DNA of 48,258 nucleotides, taken from an uncultured Pseudomonadota bacterium. Its GTDB lineage: Bacteria > Myxococcota_A > UBA796 > GCA-2862545. The notes beneath the pieces are model-generated. The model saw only the letters and a program-made list of their open reading frames with translations. It was not told where the DNA came from and searched no databases. A program made the translations under genes and the position numbers. Location of the stretch: contig CAIOSP010000081.1 of assembly GCA_903861005.1 (NCBI GenBank), positions 1-48,258 on the forward strand, read 5' to 3'. Positions 3,864 to 26,976 of this stretch are shown piece by piece (the first letter of the stretch is position 1; each line of letters opens with the position of its first letter).

Positions 3864-5795
3864 ATGGGCGTGTGGACGGAGTCGACGACTGAGATCGGTG
3901 TACCCATGTCTGGGCTCGTGGGCCGACCCACGTGGGCGGGGCTGGAGGTCGACGACTTCATGCGTCGCCTTCCAGGCCTCACGCCGCAGTTGGTGCTGGA
4001 GATCCAGAACCGGGTCCTCGAACTCATCGCCTGCAACGCGCCGCTCGACGTGACGCTCGGCGCCATCTCCCGCTTCGCGGAGCGCTGCATCCCGGGGATG
4101 ATGGCGTCGGTGCTCTACTTCGACCCGTCGGTCGGGGCGCTCAAGCGCGGCGGCTACGGCTCCATGCCGTCGAGCTTCGTCGACATCGTCGACGGCCTGG
4201 TCCCCGGCCCCAGCATGGGCTCGTGCGGGACCGCGGCCTTCCTGCAGAAGCGGATCATCAGCGAAGACGTCGAGACCGACCCGCTGTGGGCGAACTTCCT
4301 CGAGCTCTGTCACAACTACAACATCCGCTCGGCGTGGTCCTCCCCGCTGGTCAGCGGCCGCGACAGCAGCCTGTTGGGCGTGTTCGGGATGTACCACCCG
4401 ACCGTCCGCAAGCCGAGCGACGATGAGCTGGCGGTCGTCGACCACTTCACGCACCTCGCCTCCATCGCGGCGGAGCGTCACCGCGTGGACACCGAGCAGA
4501 GTCACCGCGCGAGCCACGACGCGGTCACCGAGGTCGGCAACCGTCACCAGCTGAGCCAGGAGGGTCCGCGCGTGCTCGCGCAGCGCCGCGCCAGCGGCGG
4601 CCCGCTCACGCTCGTGTTCATCGACCTCGATCGCTTCAAGTCCTTCAACGACGTCTTTGGCCACGTCGCCGGCGACGTACTGCTCCGCAAGGTGAGCAAC
4701 CGCCTCAACACCGGCCTGGCGCCGCACGATCTCCTCGTCCGCTTTGGCGGTGACGAGTTCATCGCGTTCCTGCCGCTGACCGTCGAGGACTCGCTCGCGC
4801 GCCTCGCCCACGTGCGCGAGCTGCTGCGCACGTCCGTCGACATCGCCGAGACCCGCGCGCAGGTCACCTTCTCCGCGGGGCTTATCGAGTGCGTCGGCAG
4901 CGACGCCACGCTCGACGCGCTGGTCTTCGCGGTCGATGAGGCCGCCCGCAACGCCAAGGATCTAGGCGGCGACCGTGACGTCGTCGCAGACGCGGTCCAG
5001 TCCGCTGAGGTGCAGCGCAAGCGCTCGCTCAGCCTCGATCTGGCCGACGCGCTGGAGCGAGGCCGCGTCGATCCGCACATGCAGCCCATCGTGCGCATCG
5101 AGGACGGCTTCCCGCAGTCCTTCGAGCTGCTCTTCCGCCTCAACGATCCGCGCTTTGTCGGCGTGCCGATCCCCGAGATCATCCGCATCAGCGAAGAGTC
5201 TGGCCTGATCCACCGCATCGGCGTCGAGATGATCCGCGCCGCGTGCCGCATCCTGGCCGAGTCCCCCGGCGACTTCGCCGGCATCACGATCAACGTGAAC
5301 GTGTCGGTGCACCAGCTCATGCGCAGCGAATTCGTCGCCCAGTGCGCGGAGGCGCTGGCCGACTACCACATCGAGGCCGGGCAGCTGTGCGTCGAGCTGA
5401 CCGAGAGCCGCCTGCTCGACTCCGCCGGACCCGCGCGTGACACGCTGCTCGCGCTCAAGGCCATGGGCTTCCGCTTGGCGCTCGACGACTTCGGCACCGG
5501 ATACGCGTCGCTGACGTACCTGCAGTCGCTGCCGGTAGACTACATCAAGGTCGACAAGAGCTTCGTCGATCAGGTGGAGCACGCCGGACGCAACCGATCG
5601 CTGTGCACCGCGCTGCTGTCCATGGGCCGTGCCTGCGTGACGGGGATCGTCGCCGAGGGCGTGGAGACCGAGGAGCAGGCCCGGGCGCTGCTTGAGCTCG
5701 GCTACCCGCTGGGCCAGGGCTTCTTGTGGAGCCGCCCGATGCACGCGATCGCCGCGCGCCGCTGGATGCGCGAGGCGCGCGCGCGCGCCGCGTAG
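3864..5795 (+). CDS. GAF-GGDEF-EAL cyclic-di-GMP turnover protein
   Basis: The 643-residue cytosolic protein has a GAF sensor (about 45-205, with GPSMGSCGTAAF near 115-126), a GGDEF diguanylate cyclase domain (about 215-375) and an EAL phosphodiesterase domain (about 385-635). The cyclase motif RFGGDEF is intact at 293-299. The inhibitory RxxD site that normally precedes it reads APHD, so product feedback may be absent. In the EAL domain the signature reads ELL at 421-423 with the catalytic Glu kept, and ELTES (511-515), DDFGTGYAS (541-549), the Lys of VDKSF (565), AEGVE (597-601) and QGF (618-620) are all present. Both activities may therefore be possible, with GAF choosing between them. There are no membrane segments. 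Confidence 0.92.
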   Translation: MGVWTESTTEIGVPMSGLVGRPTWAGLEVDDFMRRLPGLTPQLVLEIQNRVLELIACNAPLDVTLGAISRFAERCIPGMMASVLYFDPSVGALKRGGYGSMPSSFVDIVDGLVPGPSMGSCGTAAFLQKRIISEDVETDPLWANFLELCHNYNIRSAWSSPLVSGRDSSLLGVFGMYHPTVRKPSDDELAVVDHFTHLASIAAERHRVDTEQSHRASHDAVTEVGNRHQLSQEGPRVLAQRRASGGPLTLVFIDLDRFKSFNDVFGHVAGDVLLRKVSNRLNTGLAPHDLLVRFGGDEFIAFLPLTVEDSLARLAHVRELLRTSVDIAETRAQVTFSAGLIECVGSDATLDALVFAVDEAARNAKDLGGDRDVVADAVQSAEVQRKRSLSLDLADALERGRVDPHMQPIVRIEDGFPQSFELLFRLNDPRFVGVPIPEIIRISEESGLIHRIGVEMIRAACRILAESPGDFAGITINVNVSVHQLMRSEFVAQCAEALADYHIEAGQLCVELTESRLLDSAGPARDTLLALKAMGFRLALDDFGTGYASLTYLQSLPVDYIKVDKSFVDQVEHAGRNRSLCTALLSMGRACVTGIVAEGVETEEQARALLELGYPLGQGFLWSRPMHAIAARRWMREARARAA

Positions 5796-5826: not shown

Positions 5827-8700
5827 TCACTCGCCCAGCGACGTCAGCCCCTTCTCCACCCGGTCCAGCCCGACGGACAGCACGGTGCGGGAGGTCGCGA
5901 GCGCGAGCCGGATGTGGCCCGCGGCGGAGGGCCCGAAGAACCGCGGTGACCCGGGCACGACCGCGACCTTGTGCTGCTCGCGCAGTCGAGTCACCAGCCC
6001 GTCCACGTCGTCGGTCAGCGCCGACACGTTCGGGAACACCACGAACGTGCCCTCCGGCGTGTGGCAGCGCACGCCCGGGATTGCGTTCAGGCGGCGGACC
6101 GCCAAGTCGCGCTGCGAGGTCAGGTGCAGCACGAACCGCGCCAGCCACTCCCCCGCGTGCTCCAGCGCAGCCGTGCCCGCGACCTGCGACAGCGTGCTCA
6201 CGCCGTACGCGGTCTCGTCCGCGTGGGACAGGCCGACGATGCGGCTCATCTTCGTCGCGTCCGGCGTGACCAACAGGCCCAATCGGAGGCCCGCCAAGCC
6301 GTAGCCCTTCGAGAAGCCGAGCGTGGTGAACGTCCGCCGCGCGACCTCGGGCCCGAGGGAGGACATGGCGGTGAACACGTTCGGCGCGTGGACGATGTCG
6401 CTCCACACCTCGTCGGCCATGATCCACAGGTCATGCTTGATCGCCAGCTGCGCCAGCTGCTCCAGCTCCGCGCGGCGCCACACCCGGCCCAGCGGGTTGT
6501 GCGGGTTGCAGACGCCCAGCATACGCGTACGACCCGGACGGATCAGCGCCTCCACCTCGTCGATATCGAAGCCATACGACCCGTCCGCGCGCGCGCGCAT
6601 CGGGAAGCGCCGCACCGTCCCGCCGGCGGCGACCACCGACCGCTCGAGCAGAAAGTCCACCGGGTCTGGGATGATCGCCTCGGCACCAGGCACGTCCATC
6701 GCGAACTGCGCGGTCAGATAGAGCGCGGAGGCGGCGCTGTTCGCCACGAAGATATCGCTGGTGGTGCACGGCATCTGGCGGCGCGCGCGCAAGTGCGACG
6801 CGGCCGCGGCGCGCAGCTCAGGCAGGCCCTCAGCCGGTCCGTACGGGAAGATCCCGCCCGCCACGTAGCGCTGGATCGCCTCAACGATCGGCTCCGCGAT
6901 CGGCAGGTCCAGATCGGCGGCCGACAGCGGGATCACACCCGGCGCCTGCTCGGCCCAGCGGTAGTTGTAGGAGCGCTGCCGCAGCAGGCCCAGATCGACG
7001 CGATGGTGCGCAAACCACGGGTCGCCGTCGTCGTTGGACGCGGGCACCAGGTCGTGGACGATCCGCGTGACGCTCGCCGGCGCCTCGTCACGCGTGAGCG
7101 CGCCGCGCAGCTCGTCCGTCGAGACGCGGCCATCGCCGTTGAGGTCCAGGGCGCGCATCGCGGCGCCGCCTGCCCCCGGCGAGACGTCCATACCGAGCAG
7201 GCGCATCGCCGCGTCCAGTTCATCGCCGCCCACCGCGCGGTCGCCGTCGGCGTCCAGCAGGTTCATGAGCTGCCGCGCGCGCGCCTCCAGCGTGGTCAAC
7301 GAGATCTTTCGCGGGGAGAGCCGATCCCGGATCCGTCGCACGAGCGCCGTGGTCTCACCGGTGCCCCCGAGCGCCTCGACGAACTCGTCTGGGTCCACCG
7401 ATCCGTTCCCGTCTGAGTCCAGGTGGGCCAAGAACGCGACGCGCTCCGTGGGAGAGAGATCGATCTCGAACAGCTCGATCGCGCGGGCCAGCTCGGACGG
7501 CGAGAGCGCACCGTTCCCGTCCGTGTCGAGCGCCGCGAAGAGAAGGCGGAGGCTGTCGGCGGTGAGCCCCAGGTGCGCCCCCAGGCTGGAGGCCGCGCCG
7601 TCCACGTAGCTTTGGGACAAGACGCGACGCGGATCCACGAAGTTGGCGAGGATGCGACGCCCGCCGTCGAGGAACGGCATGACCTCGTCCTTTCGCGCGC
7701 GGGCGTAGCGCTCGAGCGCGGTCGACAGGCCACCCGCTTCACGCGCGCCCACCGCGTCGGCGAGCACCAGCGCGTCCTCGAGCGCGGAGCAGACCCCTTG
7801 GCTCGTGAACGGCAGCAGCGGGTGGAACGCATCGCCCACAAGGGCCGCGTTCGCGGCGTGCGCGTGCTCCGGCAAGTCCGCGTCGGCGGGCTGCCAGATG
7901 TGAAAGGTGCTCAGGTCCACGTTGGAGAGCCACTCCGGGATCGGGTCGGGCGCACCCGCGAGCACCGACGTCAGCAGCGCTCGGATCTCGGCGTGCGACG
8001 CGGTGCGGTCCGGCACGGGCCACCGCGTGCGATCAAGCTGCACAAACCCGATCACCTGATGCGCGGTGGGCGCCAGCAACCCAAACGCCGCGCCGCGGTC
8101 GGCGAACATCGTCTTGAGGAAGGTCTTGCCAAGGCGCGCGGCGAAGTCGGGCCGCTCGGTGGTGGTCACAAGCTCCCACACGCGACTACGCGCGCGCACC
8201 TGCCCCGGGTTCAACGCCGACCACATCGGCGACCCGATCCCCTCCGAACCGACGAAGAGTTCGTCTTCCGATGCGTCGAGCGTCGTGCCGTCGTGGAACA
8301 CGACCTGCCGCACCCGGCCTGCGTCAAGGTCGACTCGTGTCACCGCCGCGCCATAGACGATCCGGGTGTGGCGAAGCCGATTGCGCAGGCCGTTGACCAC
8401 CGACGCGCGGGTCACACAGTACACGTCCTTCAACGCTTCGGTGCGCAGGACAACGCCGTTCGAGTCCTGCAACCACATGCGGGCCAAGGGCGTCGCAGAG
8501 CGCAGGCCCACGTCCGCGCCCATCGCCCGCAGCGCGCGCACCCCGTTCTGCATCAGCATCACGCCATGGCCCGACTCGTGCGCGGCAGATTCACTGCCCA
8601 TCCGCTCGTAGACGACGATGTCGGTCACCCCGGCGCGTTCTTCCAGCGCGAGCGCTGTCGCGAGGCCCGCCACCCCGCCACCAAGGATTCTCACTCGCAT
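5827..8700 (-). CDS. Flavin monooxygenase - four EF-hands - PLP aminotransferase-like fusion
   Basis: A single uninterrupted 957-residue frame joins three modules. Residues 1-370 form an FAD-dependent monooxygenase, with ILGGGVAGLA at the start and a GDAFHPLLPFTSQG motif at 289-302 that matches the second FAD site of aromatic hydroxylases. Residues 380-540 contain four EF-hand loops at 392-403, 428-439, 483-494 and 519-530, each of DxDGxG or DxNGDG type ending in Glu; the third has Arg for the usual Gly at position 6. Residues 560-957 form a complete fold type I PLP enzyme closest in pattern to MalY/PatB C-S lyases and aminotransferases, with NPHNPLG (732-738), ADEVW (762-766), the Schiff-base Lys in GFSKGYGLAGLR (K798) and a carboxylate-binding Arg at about 931. 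The substrate is unknown. It stands alone, convergent with the upstream c-di-GMP gene. Confidence 0.88.
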   Translation of the reverse strand: MRVRILGGGVAGLATALALEERAGVTDIVVYERMGSESAAHESGHGVMLMQNGVRALRAMGADVGLRSATPLARMWLQDSNGVVLRTEALKDVYCVTRASVVNGLRNRLRHTRIVYGAAVTRVDLDAGRVRQVVFHDGTTLDASEDELFVGSEGIGSPMWSALNPGQVRARSRVWELVTTTERPDFAARLGKTFLKTMFADRGAAFGLLAPTAHQVIGFVQLDRTRWPVPDRTASHAEIRALLTSVLAGAPDPIPEWLSNVDLSTFHIWQPADADLPEHAHAANAALVGDAFHPLLPFTSQGVCSALEDALVLADAVGAREAGGLSTALERYARARKDEVMPFLDGGRRILANFVDPRRVLSQSYVDGAASSLGAHLGLTADSLRLLFAALDTDGNGALSPSELARAIELFEIDLSPTERVAFLAHLDSDGNGSVDPDEFVEALGGTGETTALVRRIRDRLSPRKISLTTLEARARQLMNLLDADGDRAVGGDELDAAMRLLGMDVSPGAGGAAMRALDLNGDGRVSTDELRGALTRDEAPASVTRIVHDLVPASNDDGDPWFAHHRVDLGLLRQRSYNYRWAEQAPGVIPLSAADLDLPIAEPIVEAIQRYVAGGIFPYGPAEGLPELRAAAASHLRARRQMPCTTSDIFVANSAASALYLTAQFAMDVPGAEAIIPDPVDFLLERSVVAAGGTVRRFPMRARADGSYGFDIDEVEALIRPGRTRMLGVCNPHNPLGRVWRRAELEQLAQLAIKHDLWIMADEVWSDIVHAPNVFTAMSSLGPEVARRTFTTLGFSKGYGLAGLRLGLLVTPDATKMSRIVGLSHADETAYGVSTLSQVAGTAALEHAGEWLARFVLHLTSQRDLAVRRLNAIPGVRCHTPEGTFVVFPNVSALTDDVDGLVTRLREQHKVAVVPGSPRFFGPSAAGHIRLALATSRTVLSVGLDRVEKGLTSLGE

Positions 8701-8916
8701 TCAGCCCGCTCCGTCCGATGTGGACGGACCCTAGGACAGAGTGCATCCCAAAGGCCATTCGGGGATCCCATAGCGGCACACGATGGCCGGTCGTCCACGG
8801 ACCCGCGCGTGCCGCAAGCACGACCGCCCGCGCCTCGTCGAAGGTGCGGCATTGTGTCTCATCGTGCGCGGTGGAGTGGCTGGCTAGTGCCTCGCATCCA
8901 CCTAGTCGGAGTGTCT

Positions 8917-9249
8917 ATGCGCGCTTTGTTCAGCGTCCTGTTGGTCCTCTGTGTCGCCTGTGACGACGGCGCCGCCCCCTCGGAAGAAGTGAACGCCGTC
9001 CTCGATCTGACCGGCGACGCCACCGTCGGCGCCGACGTGTTCGCTGCATCATGCGGCGCCTCCACCTGCCACGCGGCCGATGGCTCTGGCGGCGAAGGCG
9101 TGGACCTGCGCGAGCACGTCCCCGAGCACACCGACGCCCAGCTTGTCGAGTTCATGATCCACGGCGTGGGCGAGATGCCCGCGACCGGCCTGACGGCGCA
9201 GGAAGAGGCCGACGTGCTCGCCTACCTGCGCGAGACCTTCGGCGGCTGA
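8917..9249 (+). CDS. Monoheme cytochrome c lipoprotein with a CX4CH motif
   Basis: The 110-residue protein has a lipoprotein signal with lipobox VAC at Cys15, followed by Asp-Asp. The mature part is a small class I cytochrome c domain. The heme attachment site is SCGASTCH, residues 45-52: four residues separate the two cysteines in place of the usual two. A GEMP sequence at 85-88 supplies a probable distal Met ligand. The final helix, [14 protein letters not shown], is typical of cytochrome c domains. It is likely an electron carrier anchored on the periplasmic side of a membrane. It is divergent from the fusion gene across 216 bp in which I saw no clear regulatory motif, and its 3' end lies 10 bp from the convergent sdaA. 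Confidence 0.75.
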
Positions 9250-9259
9250 TCCGCGGCCG

Positions 9260-10618
9260 TCAGCACTCGACGACGTTCACCGCGAGGCCGCCGCGCGCGG
9301 TCTCCTTGTATTTGGTGCTCATGTCGGCGCCGGTCTGGCGCATGGTGGCGATCACGCGGTCGAGCGAGACCTTGTGGTTTCCGTCGCCCTGCAAGGCCAG
9401 CCGCGCCGCGTTGATCGCCTTGACCGCGCCCATCGCGTTGCGCTCGATGCACGGCACCTGCACCAGACCACCGACCGGATCGCATGTCAGGCCCAGGTTG
9501 TGCTCCATCCCGATCTCAGCGGCGTTCTCGACCTGCGCCGGCGTGCCGCCCATCACCTCGGCCAGGCCCGCCGCCGCCATGCTGCAGGCCACGCCGACCT
9601 CGCCCTGACAGCCCACCTCAGCCCCCGACAACGACGCGCCGTGCTTGAACAGCATCGCCACCGCACCCGCGGTCAGCAGGAACCGAACCACGGCGTCCTC
9701 GTCGACGTTGCGGCCGTAGCGCTCGTGGTAGTGCAGCACCGCCGGGAGGATGCCCGCCGCGCCGTTGGTGGGCGCCGTCACCACCCGACCACCGGCCGCG
9801 TTCTCCTCGTTCACCGCAAGCGCCCACAGGTTCACCCAGTCGAGCGCCGCGAGCGCGTCTGCGCTGTCCGGGCGCGCGCGCAGCTTGCGGTGCAGGCTCG
9901 CCGCGCGACGCGTCACCTTGAGGCCGCCGGGCAGGATCCCCTCGCGCTCGCAGCCGCGACGCACACACGCCTGCATGGCGCGCCACACGTCGAGCAGCGC
10001 GGCGCGGGTGTCGGCGTCCGGACGGAACGCGCGCTCGTTCTCGAGCATCAGCCCGCTGATCGACAGCCCCGTCTCAGCGCACCGCGCGAGCAGCTCATCG
10101 CCGGTGGTGAACGGATGCGGCAAGGCCGGCGGCGCGTCGGTCGCGGGCGCGCCGTCCTCGACGATGAACCCGCCGCCCACCGACCAGGTCAGCTGCTCGC
10201 GCAGCACCATCCCCGCCGCGTCCAACGCCGTGAGCTTCATCGCGTTCGGGTGACCGGGGAACACCACCTTCCGATGCCAAAGCAGGTCGCGCTTCAGGTT
10301 GAACGCGATGGTCCGCCCGCCGAGCAGCGTGAGGGTCGGATCCAGCTCCAGGCGCGCCACGCGGGCTAGCGCCGCGTCCACGTCGACCGTGTGCGGCTCG
10401 GCCCCCTCCAACCCCACCACCACGGCCTTGTCGGTGCCGTGGCCGCGACCGGTCAGCCCGAGCGACCCAGACAGCTCCACCCGAAGCGTGACCGTGCGAT
10501 CGAGCAGACCCGCGTTCGCGAGCGCGACCACGAAGCGCCGCGCGGCGCGCATGGGCCCGACCGTGTGCGACGAGGACGGGCCGACGCCGATGGTGAACAA
10601 GGACAGCGTGGAGAGCAT
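9260..10618 (-). CDS. sdaA: L-serine ammonia-lyase, iron-sulfur type, single chain
   Basis: The 452-residue protein matches single-chain bacterial L-serine dehydratases, which convert L-serine to pyruvate and ammonia with a [4Fe-4S] cluster. The N-terminus has the family motif [14 protein letters not shown] (residues 13-26). Three cluster cysteines are visible at about 337 (EVGCQGE), 379 (LTCDPVGG) and 390 (VPCIERN). The last residue is Cys452. In the Legionella enzyme a C-terminal Cys is known to occupy the fourth cluster position until substrate binds, and the same trait can be inferred here. The gene follows arsA by 27 bp on the same strand, so it may be read from the ars transcript, though a role in arsenic resistance is not obvious. 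Confidence 0.93.
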
Positions 10619-10645: not shown

Positions 10646-12439
10646 CTACACCGAACCCGCCGCCGACACCCCGTCCCCGACGTTCCTCGGCGGCGCGCCC
10701 GCGTCGGCGTCTCGTGCCAGCTCCAGCCGCTCCTCCGCGCGCGTCGGCGTCCACGGCACCATCGCCACCGGCAGCCCGAGCGACGCCACCTCGCGCAGCC
10801 AGGGCGCCTCGTGCGCGCGTCGACTCACCAGCACCGGGTCGCGCACATCCAAGGGCGTCAGGCAGGAGTTGATCACCCAAGCGAACGCGTGGATGTCCGC
10901 CCGCTCCAGGTCGCGGCCCAGCGCGCGCGCCTCGTGCACCGGCGTAGCCTCGGGCAGCGTGACCAGCAGCACCTTGGTGTAGGTCGGATCGCGCAGGCGC
11001 GGCAGCAGGGCGCGCACCTCGGGCGCCGCCTCCCCCGCCTTCTTCAGCACCTCGCGGTGGTAGCTCTCCGCGGCGTCGAGCAGCAGGAGCGTGTGGCCCG
11101 AGGGCGCGGTGTCGAGGACGACAAAGCCCGCCTCGGCCTTGGCGACGATGCGCGCGAAGGCCTGGAACACCGCGATCTCTTCGGTGCACGGCGAGCGCAG
11201 GTCCTCTTCGAGCAGCGCGCGCGCGGCGGCGTCCAGACTCGCCCCCGCTGTCGCCATCACCTCAGCGCTGTACGCGGCCGTCTCGGCGTGCGGATCGATC
11301 CGGCTCACGGTGATCCCGGCGACCGCCTCACCGAGCGCTTCGGCCACGTGCGCGGCCGGATCGGTCGTGCTCAGCTGCACCGCGTGCCCGCGCCGCGCGA
11401 GCGCGACCGCCACCGACACGGCGACGCTCGTCTTGCCGACGCCGCCCTTGCCCATCGTGAAGATCACGCCGTGTCCGCCCGCTTCCAACGAGGGGATCAG
11501 CGCCGACAGCGAGCCGAAGTTCGGCACCTCGCCCTGCACGACCGGCGCGGTGGCGACGTCGGCGCCGCCAAACGCCCGCAGCGCGTCGAGGCCCACCAGG
11601 CCAAACGGCATCAACCGAACCTGCGTCTGCGGGAGCGCGCGCAGCCCCTCAGGCATGGCCGCCAGCGCGGCGCGACCGCGCTCCTCCAAGACCAGCGCGA
11701 CAGGGTCGGTGCGATCGGTCGCCGTGAACACCCCGTTCACCACCAGCCGCTGACGGGTGATCCCGATCTCCGCGAGCTCGTGACGGGTCCGCTCCGCTTC
11801 GCGCAGCGCGGACGGCTCCGGTCGCGTCACCAGCACCAACGCCGTCCTGTCGCCGTCGCTCAGCGCCGCCCGCGCCGCGGCGTACAGCGTCCGCTGCGCC
11901 TCCAAGCCCGCGAGCGGTCCCAGGCACGACGTGCCGCCGACGTTCGCGTCCAGGAAGCCCGACCACGCGGTGGGCAGCTCCAACAGGCGCAGCGTGTGGC
12001 CGGTGGGCGCCGTGTCGAACACGACGTGATCAAAGTCCGCCGTCGCCGAGGGCTCGCCGAGCAGCGACGCGAACTGGTCAAAGGCCGCGATCTCCACCGT
12101 GCACGCGCCAGAGAGCTGCTCCTCGATGCTCCGCAGCGCCGCCGCAGGCAGCACGCCGCGGTACGGCCCCACCACCCGCTCCCGATAGGCCTTGGCCGCC
12201 GCCACGGGGTCGACGTTCATCGCGGACAAGCGCGGCACGCCGGGGACCGGGAGCGGCGCGTTGCCCAGCTTCAAGACCAGCACCTCGTCGAGGTTGCTCG
12301 CCGGGTCGGTGCTCACCAGCAGCACGCGCTTGCCCTGCTCAGCCAGCGTCAGCGCCACCGCGCTCGACACCGACGTCTTCCCGACGCCGCCCTTCCCGGT
12401 GAAGAACAGGAAGCGAGGCGGCGTGAAGGTCAGCAGCAC
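10646..12439 (-). CDS. arsA: Arsenite-stimulated ATPase ArsA (two-domain)
   Basis: The 597-residue protein contains two homologous ATPase halves with P-loops GKGGVGKTS at 15-23 and 330-338, each followed by a DTAPTGHTL or DTAPSGHTL element. It matches ArsA, the cytosolic ATPase that drives arsenite or antimonite export through a membrane carrier. The three metalloid-binding cysteines are conserved: Cys113 and Cys172 (same numbers as in the plasmid R773 enzyme) and Cys418. The start overlaps arsD by 10 bp, so translation is probably coupled. ArsA is classically paired with ArsB, but here the export partner is Acr3, an arrangement also known from other bacteria. Confidence 0.95.
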   Translation of the reverse strand: MLLTFTPPRFLFFTGKGGVGKTSVSSAVALTLAEQGKRVLLVSTDPASNLDEVLVLKLGNAPLPVPGVPRLSAMNVDPVAAAKAYRERVVGPYRGVLPAAALRSIEEQLSGACTVEIAAFDQFASLLGEPSATADFDHVVFDTAPTGHTLRLLELPTAWSGFLDANVGGTSCLGPLAGLEAQRTLYAAARAALSDGDRTALVLVTRPEPSALREAERTRHELAEIGITRQRLVVNGVFTATDRTDPVALVLEERGRAALAAMPEGLRALPQTQVRLMPFGLVGLDALRAFGGADVATAPVVQGEVPNFGSLSALIPSLEAGGHGVIFTMGKGGVGKTSVAVSVAVALARRGHAVQLSTTDPAAHVAEALGEAVAGITVSRIDPHAETAAYSAEVMATAGASLDAAARALLEEDLRSPCTEEIAVFQAFARIVAKAEAGFVVLDTAPSGHTLLLLDAAESYHREVLKKAGEAAPEVRALLPRLRDPTYTKVLLVTLPEATPVHEARALGRDLERADIHAFAWVINSCLTPLDVRDPVLVSRRAHEAPWLREVASLGLPVAMVPWTPTRAEERLELARDADAGAPPRNVGDGVSAAGSV

Positions 12440-12813
12440 GATCCACCATCCTTGGCGTTCGCCGAGGACTTGGGGGTGCAGCAGGCGGGCTTGGGCGTGA
12501 TGATCACGTCCACCGGGACGCCGGTGAGCTTGGAGAGCACCTCACGCGACGGGTAGTGCCCCGTGGCGATGGTCGTGCCGCCGAGCTGCACCAACGGCAG
12601 CGCCGCGTCTCCCAGCGTCTCCAATGCCGACTTGACGGTCGCCTCCACGAACGCGCCGGGCTGCTGCGCCAGGTTGAAGCGCTCCACCGTCACGCCGTGG
12701 CCCTTCAACCACTCCACGTCGCCCGCGAAGCGCGCCAGGTCGGGATCCACCGTGGGGCCGCAGACGCCGGTGGAGCAGCAGAGGGCGGGATCGAACACGC
12801 GCAGGGTCGTCAT
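12430..12813 (-). CDS. arsD: Arsenic metallochaperone ArsD
   Basis: The 127-residue protein fits ArsD, which hands arsenite to ArsA and also acts as a weak repressor in some operons. The essential Cys12-Cys13-Cys18 cluster is visible in LCCSTGVCGP, and vicinal Cys pairs occur near the C-terminus at 111-112 and at the final two residues. The ATG at 12813 begins the typical MTTLRVFDPALCC sequence; the longer open frame to 12981 is not coding there. It overlaps arsA by 10 bp and starts 19 bp after arsC ends. Confidence 0.95.
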   Translation of the reverse strand: MTTLRVFDPALCCSTGVCGPTVDPDLARFAGDVEWLKGHGVTVERFNLAQQPGAFVEATVKSALETLGDAALPLVQLGGTTIATGHYPSREVLSKLTGVPVDVIITPKPACCTPKSSANAKDGGSCC

Positions 12814-12832
12814 GGTCACTCCAGGGACAAGG

Positions 12833-13255
12833 TCAGAGATCCATCGAGCGGGCCAAAGCCTCAAGCTGCGCGTCGATCGCGTCCCGGGCCACCCGGAAGT
12901 TCTCCAGGCGCTGCTCGTCGGCGAGCGGCTCGTCCTTGCGGTCCGGGTCCGGCATCGCCCAGCTGACGCGCTCGGCGTCACCGAGGAACAGCGGGCAGGA
13001 CTCCTCGGCGCACAGCGTGATCACCAGGTCCACGCTCGCCGGGTCGATCGTGTCGACGTGCTTGCTGTGCAGGGCGGACGTGTCGACGCCGAGCTCGGCC
13101 AGCGCGCGGACCGCGTACGGGTTCACGCGTCCGGGCGCGCTGCCCGCGGACTGCACGCGCACCGCGTCGCAGAACCGGTGCCGGGCGAGCGCCTCGGCCA
13201 TCTGGCTTCGCGCCGAGTTGGCGACGCACAAGAACAGCAGGCTGCGGTGCTTCAT
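12833..13255 (-). CDS. arsC: Arsenate reductase, thioredoxin-coupled LMW phosphatase type
   Basis: The 140-residue protein has the phosphatase-like loop CVANSAR (Cys10 to Arg16, CX5R) and the further redox cysteines Cys82 and Cys87 in TLCAEESCP. This is the pattern of the staphylococcal pI258-type arsenate reductase, which reduces arsenate to arsenite and is recycled by thioredoxin. It overlaps the 3' end of acr3 by four bases (ATGA), which indicates translational coupling. The reduced product would be exported by the neighbouring Acr3/ArsA system. Confidence 0.93.
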
Positions 13256-14322
13256 GCAGGCTCTCCTTGCACCGCAGGAGCCGGGAACATTCGATCCTTG
13301 AGCCGGAGCGCGACCTGCACCAGCGCGATCAGCACCGGCACCTCAACCAGCGGGCCGACCACCGCCGCCATCGCCGCGCCGTGGCGGATCCCGAACGTGG
13401 CGACGGCCACCGCGATCGCCAGCTCAAAGTTGTTGGACGCCGCCGTGAACGACAGCGCGACGGTCTTGCCGTAGTCCGCGCCCGCCCGGCGGCTCATCCA
13501 GAACGAGAACGTGAACATGACCAGGAAGTAGATCACCAGCGGCAGCGCCACGCGCAGCACGTCGAACGGCTGCGACAGGATGCGATCGCCCTGCAGCGCG
13601 AACATCACCACGATGGTGAACAGCAGCGCGACGAGCGTGAGCGGGCTGATCGCGGGGACAAAGCGCGTGGTGTACCAGGCGTCGCCCTTGGCGCGGCGCA
13701 GCGTCAGCCGGGTGAGCAGCCCCGCCGCGAACGGGATGCCCAAGTAGATCGCCACGCTCTTGCCGATCTCGCCGATCGTCACGTCCACCACGGCGCCCTG
13801 CAGGCCAAGCCAGCGCGGCAGCACGGTCACGAACACCCACGCGTAGAGCGGGAAGAACAGGATCTGGAAGACCGAATTGAACGCGACCAGGCCCGCGCAG
13901 TAGTCGGGGTCTCCCTTCGCCAGATCGTTCCACACGATCACCATCGCGATGCACCGCGCGAGGCCGATCAAGATCAACCCGGTCATGAACTCGGGCCGGT
14001 CCGGCAGCAGCAGCACCGCCAGCCCGAACATCAGCAGCGGGCCCAGCACCCAGTTCTGAAACAGCGACAGCGCGAGCACGCGACCGTCGCGAAACACGCG
14101 CCCCAGCTGCTCGTAGCGGACCTTGGCGAGCGGCGGGTACATCATCACGATCAGGCCGACCGCGATGGGGATCGACGTGGTGCCCACGCTCATCGCGTCG
14201 AGCCAGCCCGAGATCTGCGGGACCACACGGCCCAGGACAAGGCCAAGCGCCATCGCGCTGAAGATCCAAAGCGTCAGGTAGCGGTCCAGAAAGGACAGCC
14301 GACCCGCGGGCTGATCCGACAT
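13252..14322 (-). CDS. acr3: Arsenite efflux carrier, ACR3 family
   Basis: The 356-residue polytopic membrane protein belongs to the ACR3 arsenite permeases. The conserved Cys appears at residue 124 in [14 protein letters not shown], and the conserved Glu at about 300 in [11 protein letters not shown]; both are needed for export in characterised family members. The ATG at 14322 gives the usual N-terminus ([13 protein letters not shown]); the upstream extension to 14388 would run into arsR. It lies 19 bp after arsR and overlaps arsC by four bases. Confidence 0.95.
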
Positions 14323-14341
14323 CAAAGCCTCCGAGGCAAGT

Positions 14342-14671
14342 TCAGATGCAGCCGCGCGCGCCACAGCACGCACGACGAAGCGTCTCATCCGACCGCCACG
14401 CCGCCAGCGCCGGCGCGAGCCAACGCTCGGCGGTGTCGGTCAGCGCGTAGTGCATCCACGATCCGTCGCGACGCGCGCGCACCAGCCCCGCAGCACGCAG
14501 GATGGCCAGGTGGCGCGACACCGTGGGCTGCGGCGCTTCCAGGCTGCTGTGCAGGTGGCACACGCACAGCTCCCCGTGCGCGAGCATCGACAAGATCCGC
14601 ACGCGAATGGGCTCGCTGGCGGCCTTGTAGATCTCGGACAGGTCGGCGGGCTCGGGGACGACGGCGTTCAT
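14342..14671 (-). CDS. arsR: Arsenic-responsive repressor ArsR
   Basis: The 109-residue winged-helix protein carries the arsenite-sensing motif ELCVCHL with Cys36 and Cys38, and the recognition helix region [11 protein letters not shown]. Additional cysteines sit near the C-terminus (RACCGARGC). It would repress the operon until arsenite binds. The ATG at 14671 was chosen because typical ArsR sequence starts there, and because the region just upstream is a perfect palindrome likely to be its operator. An extended start at 14743 would translate the palindrome and is considered unlikely. First gene of arsR-acr3-arsC-arsD-arsA. Confidence 0.93.
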
Positions 14672-22025: not shown

Positions 22026-22155
22026 TCCCCAGGGGTGACCAGCGTAGCCCGAAGGGGGACGGGTCGCCTCGCGGATTGTCGCGTCACCTACGTGTCTTGT
22101 CCGTTGACACGGCCCCGTGGGGAGCGGTAATCGGGCCCAGCCTCCAGGGGTGTCC

Positions 22156-23445
22156 ATGTCTTCTCGCCTGCTCCGTCTCGCCGCACCGCTCTTCACGCTC
22201 GCGATGGCCCTCGGCTGCTCGGGGGGCGGCTCAGACGCTCCGGCGGCGTCCGACACCATCCTCATCGGCGAGTACGGCTCGTTGACCGGTAAGGAGGCCA
22301 CCTTTGGCCAGTCCACCGACAACGGCCTGAAGCTGGCCCTGGACGAGATCAACGCCGCAGGCGGCCTCAACGGCAAGAAGCTCGAGGTCCGCGTCTACGA
22401 CGACCAGGGCAAGACCCAGGAGGCCGGCACCGCGGTCACCCGCCTGATCCAGGACGACAAGGTCGTCGCCGTGATCGGTGAGGTCGCCTCCAGCCTGTCC
22501 ATCGCCGGCGGCCGCGTGGCCCAGCAGTACGGCGTCCCGATGATCTCCCCGTCCTCCACCAACGCCGCCGTCACCAAGATCGGCGACATGGTCAGCCGCG
22601 TCTGCTTCATCGACGGCTTCCAGGGCTACGTGATGGCCAAGTTCGCCCACGACGACCTGCACGCCACCAAGATCGCCGTGCTCTACGACCAGGCCAGCGC
22701 CTACAGCAAGGGCCTGCAGGACGACTTCGGCCGAGAGTTCACCAGCATGGGCGGCACCGTCTTCCCCGCGCAGGCCTACACCGGCGGCGACGCCGACTAC
22801 TCGGCCCAGCTCACCAGCATCCGTGAGACCGCGCCCGACGCCATCTACGTCCCCGGCTACTACACGGACGTCGGCAACATCGCGCTCCAGGCCCGCAAGC
22901 TCGGCCTGACCGTGCCCCTGCTCGGCGGCGACGGCTGGGACTCCGAGCAGCTCGGCAAGATCGCCGGCGACGCGATCGAGGGCAGCTACTACAGCAACCA
23001 CTACAGCTTCCAGGACACCCGGCCTGAGGTCACCACCTTCGTCGAGACCTACAAGCAGCGCTACAACGCCGTGCCCGATGGCCTCGCCGCCCTCGGCTAC
23101 GACTCCATGCGCGTGCTGTTCGACGCCATGAAGCGCGCGCCCTCGCTGTCCGGCAAGGACCTCGCGGCCGCCATCGCCGCGACCAACGGCTTCCCCGGCG
23201 TCACCGGCATCATCACCATGGACGCCAACCGCGACGCCAGCAAGCCCGCGGTCATTGTGCAGATGAAGGGCAACCAGCCCACGTTCGTCACCACGGTCTA
23301 CCCGAAGGGCCAGGAGCCCGCGGCCGCAGCGCCGGTCGATCCCGCCGCCGCCCCCGTGGACGGCGCCGCCCCCGCAGCCGCTCCGGCGGACCCCGCCGCG
23401 GCCCCTGCCACCCCGCCCCCCGCCACGCCCGCCGCCAAGCCGTAG
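22156..23445 (+). CDS. livJ: Branched-chain amino acid ABC transporter, substrate-binding lipoprotein
   Basis: The 429-residue protein is a class I periplasmic binding protein of the LivJ/LivK type, with IGEYGSLTGKEATFGQSTDNG at its N-terminal lobe and the Ala/Gly-rich hinge region typical of the family. It starts with a lipoprotein signal (lipobox ALGC, Cys21), so it is membrane tethered. The last 45 or so residues form a low-complexity Ala-Pro tail absent from standard LivJ proteins. It captures a branched-chain amino acid or a related ligand such as an amide for the following permease genes. It is the first gene of livJHMGF, with 12 bp to livH. Confidence 0.92.
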   Translation: MSSRLLRLAAPLFTLAMALGCSGGGSDAPAASDTILIGEYGSLTGKEATFGQSTDNGLKLALDEINAAGGLNGKKLEVRVYDDQGKTQEAGTAVTRLIQDDKVVAVIGEVASSLSIAGGRVAQQYGVPMISPSSTNAAVTKIGDMVSRVCFIDGFQGYVMAKFAHDDLHATKIAVLYDQASAYSKGLQDDFGREFTSMGGTVFPAQAYTGGDADYSAQLTSIRETAPDAIYVPGYYTDVGNIALQARKLGLTVPLLGGDGWDSEQLGKIAGDAIEGSYYSNHYSFQDTRPEVTTFVETYKQRYNAVPDGLAALGYDSMRVLFDAMKRAPSLSGKDLAAAIAATNGFPGVTGIITMDANRDASKPAVIVQMKGNQPTFVTTVYPKGQEPAAAAPVDPAAAPVDGAAPAAAPADPAAAPATPPPATPAAKP

Positions 23446-23457
23446 TCGAGGTCGCCG

Positions 23458-24375
23458 TTGACCAAGCTGCTCCAGACGCTCATGGACGGGGTGTCCGTCG
23501 GCAGCCTCTACGCGCTCATCGCGTTGGGCTACACGATGGTCTACGGCATCCTGAAGTTCATCAACTTCGCGCACTCCGACATCTTCATGCTCGGCGCGTG
23601 GGTGAGCTTCACGCTCGCCACGCTGATGGGCTGGACGTCGGACGCCCCGTGGATCGCAGGCCCGGCGGTGATCTGCGGCAGCATGTTGATCTGCGGCACC
23701 ATCGGGTTCGTGATCGAGCGGCTGGCCTACCGGCCTCTGCGCGCAGCTCCTCGCATCAACGTGCTGATCACCGCCATCGGCGTGTCGCTGTTCTTGGAGA
23801 ACGTCGGCCAGCTTGAGTACGTGTTCGGCACGCGCCCGCAGCGCATGCCCTCGCTGCTCCCGGACACCGTCCTGGCCTCGGTGGCTGGCGTCAGCATCCG
23901 CCTGGTCGACGTGCTGGTGATCGGCATCGCCTTCTCGCTGATGGGCGCGCTCGAGTACCTGGTCTTCAGCACCAAGCTGGGCCGGGCGATGCGCGCCGTG
24001 TCGCACGACCTCAAGACCGCGTCGCTCATGGGCATCGACGTGGACCGGGTGATCTCGATCACCTTCATCATCGGGTCTTCGTTGGCCGCGGCCGCGGGCT
24101 TCCTGACGGCGGCCAAGTACCCGTCGATCAACCAGCCCGCGCACTCCAACTGGATCCTGTTTGGCCTCAAGGCCTTCGTCGCCGCGGTGGTGGGCGGCAT
24201 CGGCAACGTGCGCGGCGCCATGGCGGGCGGCCTGATGATCGGCCTGGTCGAGATGTTCGGCGCGGCCTTCTTCTCGCCCAACCTGCGCGACGTCTACGTG
24301 TTCACGCTGCTGATCGTCGTGCTGCTGATCAAGCCGGACGGCCTGCTCGGCCGCGCCACGGTGGAGAAGGTCTGA
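23458..24375 (+). CDS. livH: Branched-chain amino acid ABC transporter permease LivH
   Basis: The 305-residue inner-membrane permease has about eight hydrophobic segments and the LivH hallmarks SLYALIALGYTMVYGI near the N-terminus and INFAHSDIFMLGA after it. The EAA-like coupling region VVGGIGNVRGAMAGG lies near residue 245. It forms the translocation channel with LivM. The start is TTG at 23458, supported by a GAGGTC sequence at suitable distance. The TGA stop overlaps the ATG of livM. Confidence 0.95.
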   Translation: MTKLLQTLMDGVSVGSLYALIALGYTMVYGILKFINFAHSDIFMLGAWVSFTLATLMGWTSDAPWIAGPAVICGSMLICGTIGFVIERLAYRPLRAAPRINVLITAIGVSLFLENVGQLEYVFGTRPQRMPSLLPDTVLASVAGVSIRLVDVLVIGIAFSLMGALEYLVFSTKLGRAMRAVSHDLKTASLMGIDVDRVISITFIIGSSLAAAAGFLTAAKYPSINQPAHSNWILFGLKAFVAAVVGGIGNVRGAMAGGLMIGLVEMFGAAFFSPNLRDVYVFTLLIVVLLIKPDGLLGRATVEKV

Positions 24376-25484
24376 TGGCGCGCGAGAGCGGTCTGAAGGC
24401 CCGCGCCGCGGCGCTGGCGCCCGAGCCGATGACGGTGCTCAAGCAGTCCGTGCTGCCGTTGGTGGCGGCGTTTGTGATCCCGCTGATCTTCCACTTTGGG
24501 ATCGGGCCGTCGGTCGGCGCGTACCCGTCTAAGGTGCTGCTCGACATCGGCATCAACGTGGTGCTCGCGGTGTCGCTGAACCTGGTGAACGGGTTCACCG
24601 GCCAGTTCTCGATCGGCCACGCCGGCTTCATGGCGGTCGGCGGCTACACGGCGGGTCTGGTCACCTACTACGGCGGCTACCGGATCTGGGGCGACTCGCT
24701 CCCGCACGGCGGCTTCCTGGGCGCCGGGGAGATGCTGTTCCTGGTCGCCACCATCGCGGCCGCGCTGTCCGCGGCGGCGTTCGGCTACCTCGTCGGACTG
24801 CCCTCGCTGCGCCTGCGCGGTGACTACCTGGCGCTGGTCACGCTGGGCTTTGGTGAGATCGTCCGCGTGATGATCCAGCAGACGTCCGACATCGCCACCG
24901 ACGCCACGGAGATCGCGGCCACGTCCTGGCCGTCGCTGCTCTGGAAGGTGGGCGGCGCGCTCGGCTTCACCGGCCTGCCCTTCTACACCAGCCTGTTCTG
25001 GGTGTGGCTGTGGGTGTCGCTGACCGTGCTCGTCGCGTCGCGCCTCAAGACCTCCACCCACGGGCGCGCGTTCCTCTCCATCCGTGAGGACGAGATCGCC
25101 GCCGAGGCGATGGGCATCCCCACCACCACCATCAAGGTGCGCGCCTTCGTGATGTCGGCGGCCTTCGCGGGCGTGGCGGGCTCGCTGTTCGCGCATGAGG
25201 TCGGCACCACGCTCAACCCCGGCGAGCTGGGCTTCCAGAAGTCGTTCGAGGTGGTGATCATGGTCGTGCTCGGCGGCATGGGATCGGTGTCGGGCTGCGT
25301 GCTCGCAGCGATCGTCGTCACGGTGCTGCCCGAGCTGCTCCGCTCGGTCGACGAGTACCGCATGGTCGCCTACGCGCTGACGCTGATCCTGATGATGATC
25401 CTGCGCCCCCAGGGCCTTTTTGGCCTGCGCGAGATCTGGGAGATCTGGCCGTTCAAGGCCCTGTTCCGGTCGGAGGCCAAGTGA
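24375..25484 (+). CDS. livM: Branched-chain amino acid ABC transporter permease LivM
   Basis: The 369-residue permease has the LivM signature GFTGQFSIGHAGFMAVGGY near residue 75 and the coupling element VVLGGMGSVSGCVLAA near 295-310. It pairs with LivH in the membrane. An N-terminal polar segment of about 20 residues precedes the first helix. The start overlaps the livH stop (TGATG) and the end overlaps livG by four bases. Confidence 0.95.
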   Translation: MARESGLKARAAALAPEPMTVLKQSVLPLVAAFVIPLIFHFGIGPSVGAYPSKVLLDIGINVVLAVSLNLVNGFTGQFSIGHAGFMAVGGYTAGLVTYYGGYRIWGDSLPHGGFLGAGEMLFLVATIAAALSAAAFGYLVGLPSLRLRGDYLALVTLGFGEIVRVMIQQTSDIATDATEIAATSWPSLLWKVGGALGFTGLPFYTSLFWVWLWVSLTVLVASRLKTSTHGRAFLSIREDEIAAEAMGIPTTTIKVRAFVMSAAFAGVAGSLFAHEVGTTLNPGELGFQKSFEVVIMVVLGGMGSVSGCVLAAIVVTVLPELLRSVDEYRMVAYALTLILMMILRPQGLFGLREIWEIWPFKALFRSEAK

Positions 25485-26263
25485 CGGGCATCCTTGAAGT
25501 GCAGGGCGTGTCGATCGCGTTCGGCGGCCTCAAGGCCGTGCAGGACTTCCGCTTGTCGCTGCGTGAGGGCGGGCTGCAGGGCCTGATCGGCCCCAACGGC
25601 GCGGGCAAGACCACGGTGTTCAACCTGCTCACCGGCGTGTACCGTCCCGACTCCGGCACGGTGAGCCTGGGCGGCCACAACCTGATCGGCCTCAAGCCGC
25701 ACCAGATCGCGCGGGCCGGCATGGCGCGCACCTTCCAGAACATCCGCTTGTTCGCGGACCTGACGGTGCTCGACAACATCCGCATCGCGTCCCACGCGCG
25801 CACCTGGACGTCCACGCTGGCGTCCGTGCTGCGCACGCCAGGCGCCATCGCGGCCGAGTCTGCGATCACGGAGCACGCCATGGAGCTGCTCGACGTGCTC
25901 GGCCTGGCCGACCGCGCGCAAGAGACCGCGCGCAACCTGCCCTACGGCGACCAGCGCCGCCTGGAGATCGCCCGCGCGCTGGCGCTCGACCCCGAGGTGT
26001 TGCTGCTCGACGAGCCCGCCGCCGGCATGAACCCGCAGGAGAAGATCGCCCTGCGCGGCCTGATCCGCACCGTGCGCGAGCGCTTCTCGCTGTCCGTCCT
26101 GCTCATCGAGCACGACATGGGGCTGGTGATGGACCTCTGCGAGCAGATCACCGTGCTCGACCACGGCACCGTCATCGCCGACGGCTCGCCGGAGTCCGTG
26201 CAGGGCAACCCGCGCGTGATCGAAGCGTACCTGGGCGCCCCGTCGGCGGAGGTGTCGGCATGA
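25481..26263 (+). CDS. livG: Branched-chain amino acid ABC transporter ATPase LivG
   Basis: The 260-residue ATPase has Walker A GPNGAGKTT (residues 38-46), the Q-loop in RTFQNIRLF, a divergent signature YGDQRRLEIARAL in place of the usual LSGGQ, as is common in LivG, Walker B VLLLDEPAAGMN and the switch His in IEHDM. It energises the LivHM permease. The GTG start overlaps the livM stop by four bases. Confidence 0.95.
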   Translation: MTGILEVQGVSIAFGGLKAVQDFRLSLREGGLQGLIGPNGAGKTTVFNLLTGVYRPDSGTVSLGGHNLIGLKPHQIARAGMARTFQNIRLFADLTVLDNIRIASHARTWTSTLASVLRTPGAIAAESAITEHAMELLDVLGLADRAQETARNLPYGDQRRLEIARALALDPEVLLLDEPAAGMNPQEKIALRGLIRTVRERFSLSVLLIEHDMGLVMDLCEQITVLDHGTVIADGSPESVQGNPRVIEAYLGAPSAEVSA

Positions 26264-26976
26264 GCACGATGCTCGAGATCTCCGGGCTGCACGTCAGCTA
26301 CGGCGCCATCCAGGCGCTGCACGGCGTGGACCTGAAGGTCGAAGAAGGCCAGATCGTCACGCTCATCGGGAGCAACGGCGCGGGCAAGTCCACCACGCTG
26401 CGCGCCGTGTCCGGCCTGCTCAAGCCGGTGTCGGGCACCATCACGTTCCACGGCCAGCGCATCGACGGCATGAAGGCCCACGACATCGTGCGGCTCGGCA
26501 TCAGCCAGGCGCCCGAGGGCCGCGGCGTGTTCGCCAACATGACGGTGGCGGAGAACCTGGACCTGGGCGCGTACGTGCGCGACGACAAGGCCGGGATCGC
26601 GTCGGACATGGAGCGCTCGCTCGACCTGTTCCCGCGCCTGCGCGAGCGCCTGCAGCAGAAGGCCGGCACGCTGTCGGGTGGCGAGCAGCAGATGCTGGCG
26701 ATCGGGCGCGCCCTGCTCGCGCGGCCCAAGCTGCTGCTCCTTGACGAGCCCTCGCTCGGCCTGGCGCCGCAGGTGGTCGCGACCATCTTCCAGATCCTGC
26801 GCGACATCAACAAGTCCGGCACCACCATCCTGCTCGTCGAGCAGAACGCGCACATGGCCCTTGAGGTGGCCCACCGCGGCTACGTGCTCGAGGTCGGCCG
26901 CGTCGTGCTGTCCGACGACGCCAAGGTGCTCGCGCAGTCGGATGAAGTGCGCAAGCACTACCTCGGCGTGGGGTAG
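26260..26976 (+). CDS. livF: Branched-chain amino acid ABC transporter ATPase LivF
   Basis: The 238-residue ATPase has Walker A GSNGAGKSTT, signature LSGGEQQMLAIGRAL and Walker B LLLLDEPSLGL. The switch residue is Gln in LLVEQN, as is usual in LivF, so the LivG/LivF heterodimer has the normal composition. It is the last transporter gene; its start overlaps livG by four bases (ATGA). Confidence 0.95.
   Translation: MSTMLEISGLHVSYGAIQALHGVDLKVEEGQIVTLIGSNGAGKSTTLRAVSGLLKPVSGTITFHGQRIDGMKAHDIVRLGISQAPEGRGVFANMTVAENLDLGAYVRDDKAGIASDMERSLDLFPRLRERLQQKAGTLSGGEQQMLAIGRALLARPKLLLLDEPSLGLAPQVVATIFQILRDINKSGTTILLVEQNAHMALEVAHRGYVLEVGRVVLSDDAKVLAQSDEVRKHYLGVG

Follow-up and report, generated by a model that had tools for sequence, protein, structure and literature searches.

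Architecture of the fusion gene

Can a single bacterial gene couple a flavin monooxygenase to a PLP enzyme through calmodulin-like EF-hands, and what might calcium do in such a protein? These questions are raised by a minus-strand gene (5827..8700) of the window, as we call the whole 48,258-nucleotide stretch of DNA analysed here. Its translation opens with the ATG at 8700, runs through 957 codons with zero internal stops, and closes with a stop codon whose last base is 5827. An earlier note on this DNA had described the continuous frame, which is borne out, but had not given its strand. A Pfam search of the full 957-aa protein confirmed that three domain types lie in one chain, with all matches above the curated cut-offs: FAD_binding_3 at aa 2‒339 (E = 1.5e-8), four EF-hand matches at about aa 383‒540 (EF-hand_1, E = 4e-18; EF-hand_7, twice), and Aminotran_1_2 at aa 589‒940 (E = 1.7e-44). 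The stretches quoted in the earlier note, GGGVAG (aa 7‒12), GDAFHPLLPFTSQG (aa 289‒302), and K798, are all present. Since the N-terminus MRVRI-GGGVAGL recurs in three related genomes (G118, G218, and G456), the start at 8700 is supported. AlphaFold2, run on the window protein plus one homologue, reached a mean pLDDT of 34, and the prediction was set aside.

Recurrence of the fusion in other genomes

We searched for the fusion in 379 genomes of the phylum, and then at the level of the family, the order, and the class as well as in related groups. It was found in three genomes: the window genome (G000), G118, and G145. G118 belongs to the same genus, and its protein is 96% identical over aa 1‒814, where the contig ends; a search of genome contigs returned this contig as the sole match. 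G145 belongs to another class, and its protein is 52% identical from aa 256 to the end; its contig begins there, and the N-terminus is thus absent. The fusion is sparse, occurring in 2 of the 21 genomes of the family, both in the window genus.

Between G000 and G118, the dN/dS ratio is 0.16 overall, 0.14 in the flavin domain, 0.18 and 0.14 in the two EF-hand pairs, and 0.11 in the PLP domain. The 20-residue linker between the fourth EF-hand and the PLP domain showed no constraint, with too few sites to judge. These data bear on the suspicion, already raised in the earlier note, that homologues are split genes and that a frameshift or an assembly join created the fusion. Most homologues are indeed split genes, which speaks for such an artefact. 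However, the same in-frame join is present in three separate genomes, with the EF-hand module, which is rare among relatives, also in frame, and purifying selection spans the join. The two further genomes and the selection rule out a frameshift or assembly join, and we regard an artefact as scarcely credible.

A conserved gene pair and the origin of the fusion

In the unfused relatives, a monooxygenase gene is followed by a PLP gene, adjacent and on the same strand. This arrangement extends over many families: wherever the DNA upstream of a PLP homologue is readable, a monooxygenase gene comes immediately before it, and only the homologue of G225 is without upstream DNA. In the split pairs, −5 to +38 bases separate the monooxygenase stop codon from the beginning of the PLP match. 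The PLP homologues show 46‒59% identity within the phylum and 37% in Persicobacter, a member of the Bacteroidota; a plasmid of Persicobacter psychrovividus carries both genes, overlapping by 8 bases. The FAD and PLP trees agree on the main sister groups. The separate adjacent genes that the earlier note had proposed to look for therefore exist, and the two enzymes belong together as a conserved pair. Since the pairing is conserved and the genes have also been fused, both enzymes are very probably part of a single route.

An intermediate arrangement occurs in G218 and G456, in which a single gene encodes the monooxygenase together with two EF-hands and the adjacent gene encodes the PLP enzyme. 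In the flavin tree, G218 and G456 are sister to the fused group (support 100/99), and in the PLP tree the fused sequences, including that of G145, group at 92/95. The simplest history would be that EF-hands were first added to the monooxygenase and that the PLP gene was later joined behind them. In G554, both enzymes are joined by about 25 residues in a frame of 898 codons that has no EF-hands; this fusion is independent of the EF-hand fusion.

Flavin monooxygenase domain

The N-terminal domain (aa 1‒355; 7636..8700) has the FAD_binding_3 match, the GxGxxG FAD-binding loop GGGVAG (8665..8682), and the GD motif (7795..7836) of the group A flavin monooxygenases. The sequence FTS[QH]G within the GD motif is found in 20 of 24 monooxygenase partners. 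On the other hand, the DG motif (xADGxxSxxR) reads VGSEGIGSPMW in the fusion protein (aa 150‒160; 8221..8253). The earlier note had called the monooxygenase intact; this holds for the GxGxxG and GD motifs but not for the DG motif, whose degeneration it had missed. We still file the domain as group A because of the Pfam match and the two retained motifs, and it would be expected to bind FAD and to catalyse NAD(P)H-dependent hydroxylation.

No characterised family fits this domain among the NCBIfam profiles and in the structure and protein comparisons, and it is best described as a distant group A monooxygenase. The best NCBIfam profile, HpxO, scored 82.5 bits against a cut-off of 500. The HpxO urate hydroxylase (3rp8) and tropone 2-monooxygenase (8rqh) have the fold family and the GxGxxG and GD motifs in common with it. 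It differs from group A monooxygenases in that FTSQG replaces the usual xxGQG and, in the EF-hand lineage, in the degenerate DG motif.

All four EF-hand-clade sequences for which there are data have an altered DG motif, in which Asp is replaced with Glu or Ser and the next Arg is lost, whereas the EF-hand-less relatives with data have the canonical xADGxxS. Since only one lineage is concerned, the coincidence of this change with the EF-hands is a lead rather than a test. With the altered motif, the flavin step may be impaired or differently reduced in this lineage. In an extreme case, the flavin domain of the EF-hand lineage would have no oxygenase activity and would serve as a cofactor-binding scaffold or redox sensor, leaving the PLP domain as the only catalyst. 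The consistent alteration of the DG motif agrees with such a loss, but the retained GxGxxG and GD motifs and the dN/dS of the domain speak against it, and we consider it improbable.

PLP enzyme domain

The C-terminal domain (aa 561‒957; 5830..7020) is a fold-type I PLP enzyme according to its Aminotran_1_2 match and to K798 (6307..6309), which lies in FSKGYGLAG and aligns with the lysine of 14 reference proteins. All 24 PLP enzymes of the pairs contain DPVD[FY] (DPVDF in the fusion protein, aa 679‒683; 6652..6666), a signature of the clade, and DE/DG-[VI]-W. The Trp of the latter is W766 in the fusion protein (6403..6405); in the tree alignment with the pair members, it occupies the position of the aminotransferase Tyr and the MalY/PatB His. 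An Asp is found in the pair enzymes where several aminotransferase-like references carry the Trp of the PxW motif.

The earlier note had described an intact MalY/PatB-like PLP domain with K798, of which the PLP fold and the lysine stand. The best NCBIfam match is PatB (TIGR04350), with 199.8 bits against a curated cut-off of 340, and GntC and aminotransferases score nearly as high. In a PLP tree including E. coli MalY, YbdL, AlaA, AlaC, and others, the pair enzymes formed their own clade (14 rows; support 95/88), beside but outside the separate group of C-S lyases (100/98). A His after DE[VI] is a feature of MalY and its Rhodobacterales homologues, whereas the pair enzymes have Trp at this position in all 24 cases. 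Membership in the PatB/MalY C-S lyases was rejected on account of the score, the tree position, and this Trp.

The MalY/PatB C-S lyases nevertheless remain the best named match and lie on the nearest side of the tree, with a PHNPxGRVW-like motif in common; they differ from the PLP domain in having PPVFFDF or TPxYPPF in place of DPVDF, in addition to the His. The top matches among solved structures are the class I/II aminotransferases 1j32 and 1o4s (147 and 144 bits), whose Lys, Asp, and C-terminal Arg are retained. However, the domain groups with the C-S lyases, away from E. coli AlaA, AlaC, and YbdL, and the replacement of Tyr with Trp and of PxW with PVD sets it apart from the class I/II aminotransferases proper. 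To judge from the alignments, this PLP subfamily differs at predicted cofactor-contact positions from aminotransferases as well as from C-S lyases.

EF-hand module

Pfam and alignment place the four EF-hand loops between the two enzymes, in the order DTDGNGALSPSE (aa 392‒403; 7492..7527), DSDGNGSVDPDE (aa 428‒439; 7384..7419), DADGDRAVGGDE (aa 483‒494; 7219..7254), and DLNGDGRVSTDE (aa 519‒530; 7111..7146). They form two EF-hand pairs with canonical 12-residue loops, as in a calmodulin-like module. An acidic residue at position 1, an acidic residue or Asn at position 3, and Glu at position 12 are kept in all four loops, with an Arg at position 6 of loop 3. Calmodulins match the module, which also resembles a stand-alone 156-aa calmodulin-like protein of the same genome. 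This protein (L057, G000:C91:55391-55786, minus strand) likewise has four EF-hand loops and is the only other EF-hand_7 protein found in the genome. The four loops reported in the earlier note are thus borne out. With their ligand positions kept, they appear calcium-competent and are quite likely to bind calcium.

The number of EF-hands differs among relatives: two in G218 and G456, three canonical ones in G145, and four in the window. This variation, while the enzymes are conserved, would fit EF-hands that act as a spacer stiffened by calcium or as an aid to folding and keep the two enzymes a set distance apart, with calcium structural, always bound, and not involved in switching. The short EF-hand-free junction of G554 also agrees with this. 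On the other hand, the EF-hands are attached to the monooxygenase in G218 and G456 despite the separate PLP gene, so they did not originate as a linker, and all four loops of the window protein are canonical and conserved between G000 and G118. We consider a purely structural role rather unlikely. Our main reading, held with some confidence, is that calcium would do more than stiffen the linker and would change catalysis or the way in which the two domains meet, although the variable number of EF-hands might equally reflect a switch or a module under loose constraint.

Gene neighbourhood and signalling context

In G128 and G166, which represent two genera of the order, one frame encodes GAF-GGDEF-EAL followed by the monooxygenase (L040:466-3540, plus strand; L044:580-3759, minus strand), an unusual link between c-di-GMP domains and a metabolic oxygenase. 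In G166, the PLP partner is missing, and the frame after the monooxygenase (L044:1-579), at the contig end, resembles a fragment of a transposase. Elsewhere, histidine kinases, Ser/Thr kinases, or a GGDEF protein directly adjoin the pair in unrelated lineages (L030:3951-6596, L037:3333-5762, L038:7258-9726, L043:782-3892, L048:4380-7067, and L054:7194-8435).

The loci were grouped by hand into 14 lineages, and a simple script was used to call the neighbours. In 7 of these lineages, a signalling gene (GGDEF or EAL, histidine kinase, or Ser/Thr kinase) was fused to or directly beside the pair. The window genome has about 105 such matches in about 5,000 genes (the gene number is estimated), which suggests a background per pair well below 0.2; the chance of at least 7 of 14 lineages at a background of 0.2 is 0.012. 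Since the association was noticed post hoc and depends on the simple neighbour script and on our own lineage grouping, it is suggestive only.

In the window itself, profile matches identify a GAF-GGDEF-EAL protein (3864..5795, plus strand) as a convergent neighbour, with 31 bp between it and the end of the fusion gene. Because the genes are convergent and this protein shares only 30% identity with the fused GGDEF-EAL versions of G128 and G166, the adjacency may be due to chance, and we set it aside as a part of the system.

Comparison of the neighbourhoods of the loci revealed no third metabolic gene conserved beside the pair that could name a pathway. Upstream of the fusion gene is an L-serine ammonia-lyase gene (9260-10618, minus strand), also beside it in G118. 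A small plus-strand gene that reads like cytochrome c (about 8854-9249) intervenes, so no common operon is evident. Farther away are an arsenic resistance cluster (10646-14388, minus strand), with the arsenite pump ATPase ArsA near an ACR3 efflux transporter (NCBIfam, above cut-off), and a plus-strand gene row (22117-26976) resembling a branched-chain amino acid ABC transporter (binding protein, two permeases, and ATPases), after which comes a 1343-aa frame containing a protein kinase domain.

A possible two-step reaction under calcium control

On balance, we slightly favour the view that the fusion protein is a bifunctional enzyme derived from the conserved two-gene unit, probably tuned by calcium and acting on an amino-acid-derived substrate. 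In the proposed mechanism, K798 would still form the Schiff base with PLP, and the conserved Arg of IRLALATS would hold an α-carboxylate. Such a site would act on an amino acid or an amino-acid-derived acid. The flavin domain would oxygenate a small, probably aromatic or electron-rich substrate. Both steps would lie on one route, and the flavin step is the likelier one to come first. Since the positions around the cofactor that hold Tyr and Trp in aminotransferases carry other residues here, we tentatively favour an elimination or another lyase-type reaction for the PLP step over plain transamination, which is conceivable but doubtful.

Two known routes were considered. A tropodithietic-acid-like route combining a flavoenzyme with PatB was dropped, as TdaE is described in papers as acyl-CoA-dehydrogenase-like and not as group A. 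Hydroxylation of kynurenine followed by transamination found no support in the neighbourhood, and KMO and KAT gave weak matches. A more speculative and rather improbable idea is that the pair produces a small molecule for regulation or signalling and that different lineages added different second-messenger domains to the flavin enzyme, EF-hands in one case and GGDEF-EAL in G128 and G166, while kinases or diguanylate cyclases are its neighbours elsewhere.

In eukaryotes, EF-hands are attached to a flavoenzyme in NOX5 and DUOX, which calcium activates; these are membrane proteins with an unrelated flavoenzyme fold and no PLP domain. Calmodulin-like EF-hands fused to bacterial redox enzymes, namely heme oxygenase, NO synthase, and NADPH oxidase, have been described, including in deltaproteobacteria (PMC7016017). 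The window protein shares this combination of bacterial calmodulin-like EF-hands with a redox enzyme, and the kind of fusion is therefore already known; neither a FAD_binding_3 monooxygenase nor a PLP enzyme is among the fusions listed in the text of that paper (PMC7016017). Searches of the open-licence literature returned nothing relevant on the domain order or the monooxygenase-PLP pair, in line with the earlier note, which knew of no named enzyme with this order. The pair appears to be an undescribed enzyme unit.

The joining of two enzymes via a calmodulin-like stretch suggests, as far as sequence can indicate, calcium control of an uncharacterised two-step reaction. To our knowledge, few cytoplasmic targets with a directly readable activity are known in bacterial calcium signalling. 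The relatives with zero, two, three, or four EF-hands, fused or unfused, would form a natural test series for the switching of enzymes by EF-hands in bacteria.
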